Source: Rhodopirellula bahusiensis
GTDB taxonomy: Bacteria; Planctomycetota; Planctomycetia; Pirellulales; Pirellulaceae
Direction: 5' to 3'
DNA: 64,000 bases
NCBI RefSeq assembly: GCF_002727185.1
Contig: NZ_NIZW01000006.1
Location: 248,001-312,000, forward strand
Shown here: piece by piece, positions 29,090 through 31,686 of the stretch
How the letters are laid out: each line of letters opens with the position of its first letter
Position numbering within the stretch: the first letter of the stretch is position 1
Program-made: the position numbers and the translations under genes
Notes under the pieces: model-generated
What the model saw: only the letters and a program-made list of their open reading frames with translations
What the model was told of the DNA's origin: nothing
Database searches by the model: none

Positions 29090-29242
29090 TCGCTGGGTCG
29101 ATCCGAAGTGAATCTTTAACGAGTTGGTAAAGTGCGTGGTTTGAGAACACTTTGCATGTCGTTCGGATTGTTTTAGTCCTGACGATCATTCCTCGTCGAT
29201 AAGCGATGTCAGTCATCCAAAGTTCGACGGAGAAAGTAGCTG

Positions 29243-30373
29243 ATGTCTTGGACCCTTTCAAAAAATCGACGTTCGTCTGATTTGAGTTTCGCTCCCCGCA
29301 ATCAATTCGGCAGGCGAGTGATCGCTGTTCGTTTCTTGGCCGCGTGGGCAATGATCGCCGCTATGGCCTGCGTTGGCGTCAGCGACGCGTCGGCTCAATC
29401 TTGCGGCTGCGGCGAACCCGCCTGCGGACTGGAATCGGCAACTTGCGATTGCGAACCGGCCTGTGGTTTGGAGCCCGCCTGCGGATGCGAAGCTCCCTTG
29501 GCTTTCCCCGCCCTGCGAGCACGCTCGAGTGTTTCCTGCGGCTGCGAAACGGAATGCTCTTGCAGCGTCGAACCGGAATGCGGTGCAGAACCTCTGTGTG
29601 GCGTACAGCCCTTTTTCGCCAGCGAACCGAGCTGCGGTTTCGATGTGGCCTGTGGCTGTGAGTCAGTCGGATGCTCCGGTTGCAGCAAACCCGACAGCGG
29701 CGGTTTCTTGGGACGCCACAAAGTGCAGAAGTGCAACCCGATCTATCAAACGCTGGATCTCGCCGCCTGTGGCGTGGAACGCGTCTTTGAAGTCGGCGCG
29801 TTCTTGGTTCACGGAAAACGTTGTCATCGCGCATGCGAATCGGAATGCCAGACCTGCAGCCACTGCGAATCGTCAGCGGGTGCAATGTATAGCCACGAAG
29901 TTCATGCTTATGGCCATCATCAAGTGATCGAAGCTCCGGTTGTGATGGAATCTCGCGGAATGCCGCCGACGTCGAGCCAAAGCGTGACCGAAGTGACGCC
30001 CTATGCGCAACGAAAACCGAGCATGCAAGGAATCCCAACTCCGGCACCTCAGCACCGGAATGTTCCGCTCACCGACGGGCCGAAGACCACGATTCGCAAA
30101 TCGGCTCCTGGATTGCCATCGATTCCGAAGCCAGTTCCAGCTGAAGCGGCTCCGAGTCGCAACTCGAAGGGACGCGCGGGATCGCTGTTCGACGAAATGC
30201 GAAATCCGTTCGAAGATGATTCGGCCAATCTCAGCAAGCGTCGGGTTCAGGTTCGCCAGACTTCGTTCAATGGCGGGGAACCTGAGGGGCTTCGTCGAAT
30301 CCCACGTCCGGTTCGCAAAGCGGCAACGCAGCCAACCGAAGCGGATGACTTTGCCGACTACTTCCGAAAGTAG
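29243..30373 (+). CDS. Secreted cysteine-rich repeat protein
   Basis: 376 aa; ATG with GGAG (29231-29234) 8 bases upstream. A long signal peptide (basic start, hydrophobic about 27-50) ends in DASA, cleaved before QSCGCG. The next 170 residues hold 26 Cys, largely in short units such as EPACGLEPACGC and SCGCETECSCS, with recurring acidic and Gly/Pro residues. The second half is Cys-free, Pro/Ser-rich and basic, ending in DDFADYFRK. I do not recognise a characterised family; similar Cys-rich secreted proteins are seen in planctomycetes. It might be disulfide cross-linked in the cell wall or bind metal. A TM/signal followed by such Cys density is unlike any neighbour. Confidence 0.75.
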   Translation: MSWTLSKNRRSSDLSFAPRNQFGRRVIAVRFLAAWAMIAAMACVGVSDASAQSCGCGEPACGLESATCDCEPACGLEPACGCEAPLAFPALRARSSVSCGCETECSCSVEPECGAEPLCGVQPFFASEPSCGFDVACGCESVGCSGCSKPDSGGFLGRHKVQKCNPIYQTLDLAACGVERVFEVGAFLVHGKRCHRACESECQTCSHCESSAGAMYSHEVHAYGHHQVIEAPVVMESRGMPPTSSQSVTEVTPYAQRKPSMQGIPTPAPQHRNVPLTDGPKTTIRKSAPGLPSIPKPVPAEAAPSRNSKGRAGSLFDEMRNPFEDDSANLSKRRVQVRQTSFNGGEPEGLRRIPRPVRKAATQPTEADDFADYFRK

Positions 30374-30504
30374 TCGCGACCGGGCGGGCTTGGTCAAGAC
30401 ATGAGTTTGACGAGCCCTTCGGCTGGCAGCCCGCGTCCGATGAACAAACGAGACGCGGTGGATTCGTTGACATGATTTGGATGGTCTACAATGGTGACGG
30501 GTGA

Positions 30505-31686
30505 ATGGCCCGTCGCCATTTTTTTGTGGATTGGCTTGCGAAGTCTCAGCAAGCCAGTCTGCTTAAATCATCGTTCTCGTTGGACTTTTTTGTTGTGGTA
30601 AGACGCACCGTATTGATCCTTTTTGCTTCGCTGATGACTTGGGCTGGCCCGGTCGGTCCGGAAGCGCATGGGGACGTCATCACATTTAATGACGGTGCAG
30701 ACGATTCCGCTCCAACAGAACGAACCATCGACGCGGAGATCTTGGTCGAGGCTGCCGACGGCGGGGTGCTGGCGCGTTGCGACGCCGGCAAGCTGTGGAC
30801 GATCCAGCCGGACATGATCGTCCAACGAACGAAGCAACCCGCGGGTCCGCCGATCGATCAAGAGACGATGGCTCGTCGGATGCTGGATGAGTTGCCAAAG
30901 GGTTTTCAGGTTTACCGGACTGCAAATTACTTGCTGCTTCATCAAGGCAACGAAGCCTACGCGAGAGATTGCGGGGTTCTGTTCGAACAACTGCACCGTG
31001 GCTTCTTCACGTACTGGAAAAACCAACACGTAGATCTTGAGGAACCTCGGTATCCGCTGGTGGCATTGGTGCTCGCCAACCACGATGAATTCCTGAAATA
31101 CGCGAGCCAAGAGATCGGCGAAACGGCGAAAAGCGTCATCGGTTACTACCACTTGGAAAGCAACCGAATGACAACTTTTCGGGTGCCCAACATCGAACGC
31201 AACATCGCGACGATCATTCACGAAGCGACACATCAATTGGCGTACAACTGCGGGTTGCAAACTCGATTCGCAGACAACCCGATGTGGGTCAGCGAAGGTC
31301 TGGCGATGTTTTTCGAATCCCCTGATTTCAGCAACCCGCGCGGATGGCGTGGAATCGGTCGCGTCAACGCAGTCAATCTTGGCCGCTTTCGGCGCTACCT
31401 TTCATCCCGCCCCGCGGATTCTCTCGCGACCCTCCTGTCGGACGATTCACGATTTCGTTCCGTCTCAACGGCGGAAGATGCCTACGGCGAGTCCTGGGCG
31501 CTGACGTATTTCCTATTGAAGACACAGCGAAAAGAGTTTGTGTCTTATCTGCAGAAACTCAGTGAGTCCAAACCGCTCGACGAGCGAACGCCTCGGGAAA
31601 GAATCGAGGACTTTGAAAGTTCCATGGACATGAATCTGGAACAGCTCGATCGCAAGTTTGTTACCTACATGCGACGCGTTCGCTAG
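30505..31686 (+). CDS. DUF1570 metallopeptidase-like secreted protein
   Basis: 393 aa. A hydrophobic export segment lies at about residues 35-55 (VVRRTVLILFASLMTWAGPVG); a GTG start inside the present reading (around residue 31) would make it a standard signal peptide, so the exact start is open. The middle has a zinc motif H239-E-A-T-H243 and a further Glu in WVSEGLAMFFE (E264), a gluzincin-like arrangement. DUF1570 proteins are abundant in planctomycetes and uncharacterised; proteolysis is plausible but unproven. Its 3' end lies about 50 bases from the converging DUF1559 gene. Confidence 0.82.
   Translation: MARRHFFVDWLAKSQQASLLKSSFSLDFFVVVRRTVLILFASLMTWAGPVGPEAHGDVITFNDGADDSAPTERTIDAEILVEAADGGVLARCDAGKLWTIQPDMIVQRTKQPAGPPIDQETMARRMLDELPKGFQVYRTANYLLLHQGNEAYARDCGVLFEQLHRGFFTYWKNQHVDLEEPRYPLVALVLANHDEFLKYASQEIGETAKSVIGYYHLESNRMTTFRVPNIERNIATIIHEATHQLAYNCGLQTRFADNPMWVSEGLAMFFESPDFSNPRGWRGIGRVNAVNLGRFRRYLSSRPADSLATLLSDDSRFRSVSTAEDAYGESWALTYFLLKTQRKEFVSYLQKLSESKPLDERTPRERIEDFESSMDMNLEQLDRKFVTYMRRVR

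Follow-up and report, generated by a model that had tools for sequence, protein, structure and literature searches.

EPxCG / LDAVAGGIEK proteins of the Pirellulaceae, a candidate family of disulfide-bonded envelope scaffolds

Disulfide-rich envelopes and the EPxCG gene

The planctomycete wall has long been a disputed subject, and the Pro/Cys/disulfide chemistry of the envelope has so far been ascribed mainly to the YTV proteins. These are wall constituents found in SDS-resistant wall preparations (PMC5287468; PMC8567305). The envelopes of the Planctomyces/Pirella group withstand boiling in SDS and consist of Pro- and Cys-rich protein with many disulfides, according to the portion of PMC3035269 that cites Liesack 1986, and SDS-boiling resistance and a Pro/Cys-rich disulfide protein are also described for the envelopes of this group in PMC3422733. 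In the chlamydial outer membrane complex, Cys-rich exported proteins are disulfide cross-linked with outer-membrane porins (PMC6752827).

We analyzed a gene for a Cys-rich protein (the EPxCG protein) of the marine bacterium Rhodopirellula bahusiensis, located in a stretch of 64,000 nucleotides of contig NZ_NIZW01000006.1 (the window, to whose first letter all positions refer unless another contig is given). In the literature we found, apart from gltB, no mention of genes in the R. baltica locus range where it would be expected, and no localisation, proteomic or expression data on the protein. The ORF starts with an ATG at 29243 and ends with a TAG stop at 30371-30373, as initially annotated. 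The other 12 genus genomes each carry a single orthologue (single-copy in 13/13), among them those of R. europaea, R. sallentina, R. rubra, Aporhodopirellula aestuarii and R. solitaria. It is a real gene under purifying selection: in the closest pairs dN was far below dS in all regions, and when the window copy was compared with the orthologue L002 we obtained a dN of 0.09 with a saturated dS for the Cys domain, 0.02 against 0.79 for the core and 0.03 against 0.49 for the C-terminal region. The Cys-rich domain is under tighter constraint than the signal peptide, and the same holds relative to the linker in most pairs. Long overlapping ORFs in other frames were discarded, as those in +1/+2 are broken in relatives, the reverse frames are not consistently open and the main frame is under purifying selection. 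The gene and the parts of its product are as follows.

29243..30373, + strand: CDS of the EPxCG protein, 376 aa; orthologous frames open in 13/13 genus genomes, dN well below dS
29243..29395, + strand: signal-peptide-like region, residues 1-51 (hydrophobic segment 32-46, then ...ASA|Q); hydropathy, conserved site, predicted helix 22-47
29396..29686, + strand: EPxCG repeat domain, residues 52-148; Cys spacings of 6 and 2 enriched, dN 0.09-0.17, dS large or saturated
29687..29866, + strand: conserved core, residues 149-208 (SGGFLGRHKVQKCNPIYQTLDLAACGVERV...CQTCSHC); equivalent NPIYRxLDAVAGGIEKLxGLDKC in diverged orthologues, predicted helix 169-181
29867..30151, + strand: Cys-free Pro-rich linker, residues 209-303; almost its whole length at pLDDT below 50
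30152..30370, + strand: C-terminal conserved region, residues 304-376, with GSLFDEMRNPFEDDSA and a terminal DFADYFRK; invariant residues, motif kept outside the genus

Protein architecture and family

The initial annotation had described a secreted protein, and the N-terminus agrees with this. The hydrophobic segment LAAWAMIAAMACVGV (residues 32-46, hydropathy 2.17 across 15 residues), followed by ASA|Q, resembles a signal peptide by hydropathy and inspection, and nearly all 13 orthologues of the genus keep a charged start, a hydrophobic stretch and an A-x-A|Q-like site. The protein is thus, as judged from these features, very likely exported. It is unlikely to be a lipoprotein, since Cys43 is not conserved.

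The protein has 27 Cys, one in the hydrophobic segment of the signal peptide and 26 within residues 52-218, that is 26/167 or 15.6%; the probability of 26 or more Cys in 167 residues is ~7e-20 given the 1.34% mean Cys of the other window ORFs. Together with the seven EPxCG-like units that we counted, these values bear out the earlier description of 26 Cys making up ~15% of the early mature residues in EPxCG-type repeats. Cys-Cys spacings of 6 and 2 predominate among the 13 orthologues, which contain 70 spacing-6 pairs (19 +/- 4 expected under random placement) and 64 spacing-2 (CxC) pairs. Such frequent CxC pairs would also suit an exported metal-binding or storage protein in which CxC and CG units act as chelators of soft metals (Cu, Zn, Cd) in the manner of metallothioneins, and one of 18 family members gave a weak, non-significant match to a eukaryotic metallothionein (E 0.098). 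Nevertheless, we consider this reading unlikely: the window protein has no metallothionein match in Pfam, without protection an exported protein of an aerobe would become oxidised, and the neighbourhoods vary between orthologues and hold no metal-handling gene evident without a directed screen.

Within the core, the CxxC formed by C205 and C208 is invariant in the genus, and the genome encodes two VKOR oxidative-folding genes. These observations, along with the many Cys, could be expected of a soluble periplasmic redox buffer or assembly factor that serves a YTV-type wall by thiol-disulfide exchange and is not a structural part of it. However, Pfam detected no thioredoxin-like domain, the Cys number drifts, and the long repeats, the disordered linker and the terminal motifs look structural, all of which makes such a role improbable.

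The remaining portion (residues 219-376) has 0 Cys and 21 Pro, so the earlier picture of a Cys-free, Pro-rich half held. Its basic character is only mild, because K+R amount to 23 and D+E to 17, and it is not merely of low complexity, because it ends in the conserved motifs GSLFDEM.NPFEDDSA and ADYFRK. Twelve residues of the region, G313, F316, D317, P322, F323, D325, D326, S327, A328, Y373, F374 and R375, are invariant in the 13 orthologues of the genus, and SLFDxLxDPFxDD is retained outside it. The structure prediction for the protein was uninformative (mean pLDDT 39).

Neither Pfam (at E 1 or below) nor NCBIfam returned a family match, in keeping with the initial view that no characterised family resembles the protein. 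The homologue search proposed at that stage succeeded in other Pirellulaceae: locus reading revealed true orthologues, though diverged ones, in six or more other genera (g14, g76, g80, g81, g82 and g86). With an E cutoff of 0.01, a profile built from the C-terminal half found 29/241 Pirellulaceae genomes, a number that includes chance matches; since most genomes of the group lack a match, the family is not a universal wall component. Every diverged orthologue has a Cys-rich segment, a core near NPIYRxLDAVAGGIEKLxGLDKC and a Pro-rich linker, and most of them have SLFDxLxDPFxDD followed by a V/I-R-P-x-x-Y-like stretch. Conservation of the Cys count in homologues, which had been set beforehand as a point on which the first interpretation could fall, was not observed: mature Cys number 16-27 within the genus and mostly 7-14 in other genera, with one orthologue outside the genus (L112) reaching 25 with clear EPACG repeats. 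By sequence comparison, then, the Cys-rich character is conserved and the Cys number is not, and because the number of Cys and of EPxCG units varies we define the family by its domain order and regard repeat number as labile. The signal-peptide-like start, Cys-rich segment, core helix, Pro-rich linker, LFDxLxDPFxDD motif and upstream element (see below) were found in the Pirellulaceae EPxCG / LDAVAGGIEK proteins, which on these sequence features are a previously undescribed family, defined here.

Repeat numbers that differ between species are seen in many surface proteins, and R. baltica has been described as a holdfast producer (PMC2754498). A surface adhesin, holdfast or matrix protein beyond the outer membrane, to which the Cys domain would give rigidity, is nonetheless an explanation to which we give little credence, as Pfam found no adhesin domain and we recognised no outer-membrane secretion signal of a known type.

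Upstream element, terminator and gene neighbourhood

We identified a conserved element ahead of the gene, which ought to be counted as part of the annotated feature, and a likely terminator behind it:

29161..29203, + strand: conserved 43-bp upstream element GTTCGGATTGTTTTAGTCCTGACGATCATTCCTCGTCGATAAG, a candidate promoter/operator or 5' leader; once per genus genome, present before diverged orthologues
30490..30526, + strand: likely intrinsic terminator, a 13-bp stem followed by a T run

The element lies, with no indels, upstream of 13/13 genus orthologues despite their differing neighbourhoods, and its column identity is 88%, compared with about 65% in both flanks. A 34-base pattern of it, allowing up to 3 mismatches, had a single match per genome in all 13, always before the EPxCG gene, while the reversed pattern gave 0 matches in the same genomes. 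The weight matrix built from the genus recovered the element, again with no indels, ahead of each of the 13 diverged orthologues examined, at 9-30 bits, the two lowest scores (about 9-10 bits) being close to the best background values. The element therefore precedes 26/26 of the orthologues checked (13 genus and 13 diverged). Moreover, a family-wide search with the form of the element taken from the diverged copies yielded 11 single matches and 0 control matches; two matches fell in genomes whose orthologue had not been read beforehand, and both precede a clear orthologue.

Judging from this sequence conservation, the element may comprise a promoter plus a regulatory site. The CGTC(GATA) near its end resembles the -10 of some ECF sigma promoters, and we treat it as a candidate only. 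A small leader ORF is disfavoured, as there is no consistent start codon and the coding score was reached in 399/5000 shuffles. A structured RNA was rejected, with a covariation term of only -0.16 and no Rfam match.

Downstream, the 30480-30535 segment folds with an MFE of -28.9 kcal/mol (z -5.95). The neighbourhood seen in the window (NAD synthase, rhodanese, DUF1570, gltB) occurs in six genomes of the genus and is different in the others; an operon or a partner could not be read from it, because the neighbours change between clades. The strong terminator, the upstream element and the changing neighbourhoods suggest that the EPxCG gene is a stand-alone, monocistronic unit. The DUF1570 gene, which adjoins it in the window clade only, spans 30505-31686 (E 1.7e-56), and its product, with a HEATHQ motif and weak Peptidase_MA_2 similarity, is a probable exported zinc metallopeptidase.

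The EPxCG unit elsewhere, the scaffold reading and known systems

The EPxCG unit is also present in other proteins. We sampled the Cys-rich proteins of the R. bahusiensis genome by pattern, so that those described here are not a total count. They include a BBP2 porin (PF07642, E 1e-89; L045 289-1869, - strand, C7:322459) with an N-terminal Cys-rich EPVCGCEP segment, and two secreted-looking EPxCGC proteins with 55 Cys (L053 1204-2106, - strand, C20) and 34 Cys (L047 1270-1881, + strand, C17) in the open frame. Both of the latter have EPxCGCE units with GLLxxLF stretches between them and gave no match in Pfam or NCBIfam searches. Relatives carry EPxCG ahead of DUF6666 domains and also in numerous small proteins, whose Cys number reaches 64. 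A strict two-unit EPxCG DNA pattern is rare (3/392 genomes in the phylum), and the small-protein profile (A5), searched across the phylum with few candidates scored per genome, matched in Pirellulales only. The occurrence of one unit in the EPxCG / LDAVAGGIEK family, in small secreted proteins and in beta-barrel proteins suggests a mixed disulfide network, though the common unit could be convergent low-complexity sequence.

Several further proteins were recorded along the way. A relative's BBP2 copy (L140) has the same N-terminal Cys-rich arrangement, and L131, from another Pirellulaceae genome, is a lipoprotein-like Cys-rich protein (LTGC start) with EPACG units. Pfam Trypan_PARP matched 3/8 proteins related to L053/L047, probably through their Glu-Pro repeats. 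In the R. bahusiensis genome, a YTV-repeat protein (L092, C2:550k) has 58 Cys and a PACGC-rich C-terminal tail.

Our analysis leads us to lean, with some reserve, towards the EPxCG protein being an exported structural protein of the envelope, cross-linked by disulfides of its Cys domain and docked by its C-terminal motifs. Such a scaffold is the simplest account because planctomycete envelopes are Pro/Cys-rich and disulfide-bonded, YTV proteins are wall proteins, export is indicated by the sequence and two VKOR genes are present; a role in the disulfide-rich envelope is plausibly the most economical reading. In the mechanism that we infer, which extends to export, oxidation state, cross-linking partners, location in the wall and the role of the C-terminal motifs, the signal peptide would be cleaved and the EPxCG domain then oxidised, either in the periplasm or on the cell surface. 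The domain would form disulfides, at least some of them with other molecules; the amphipathic helix of the core and the SLFDxLxDPFxDD and DYFR motifs would dock, via the flexible Pro-rich linker, to another envelope component; and the protein would thereby act as a cross-linker or tether. Weighing against the scaffold reading are the variable Cys number, which is low in many orthologues, and the many Pirellulaceae genomes, the majority, in which the C-terminal profile finds no gene.

More tentatively, it is possible that porins, small matrix proteins and the scaffold family all bear the EPxCG unit as a common cross-linking tag and together build a disulfide-bonded layer of the envelope, either distinct from the YTV wall or connected with it, with the scaffold gene under a dedicated, family-wide 43-bp element found once per genome. 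Of our results, the more surprising are that porins carry the unit and that the upstream element is specific to this gene. The family and the Cys unit on porins provide named, testable candidates for how the outer membrane might be joined to the protein layer, and the conserved element offers a handle on the control of such envelope genes.

Compared with described systems, the EPxCG protein shares a high Cys content and CxC motifs with metallothioneins but differs from them in its predicted export, its Glu/Pro/Gly repeats and its large Cys-free half. It has the EPxCG(C) unit in common with the EPxCGC small secreted proteins and the EPxCG-bearing BBP2 and DUF6666 beta-barrel proteins of Pirellulales, several of which are encoded in the same genome, but these lack the LDAVAGGIEK core, the Pro-rich linker and the SLFD motif. 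The YTV proteins (PF07639) are likewise exported, Cys-rich and encoded in the same genome, one with a PACGC-rich tail, whereas the EPxCG protein has another repeat, another core helix and other C-terminal motifs. Membership in the YTV family was rejected, with no PF07639 match at E 1 or below; the test was able to detect members, since the model gives 25 matches elsewhere in the genome. Finally, Pfam (E 1 or below) and NCBIfam gave no sequence homology to chlamydial OmcA/OmcB, and the repeats and the architecture are different; the EPxCG protein would nevertheless work alike, via disulfide cross-links, and the EPxCG unit on a BBP2 porin of the same genome is an indirect hint that porins may be among its partners.
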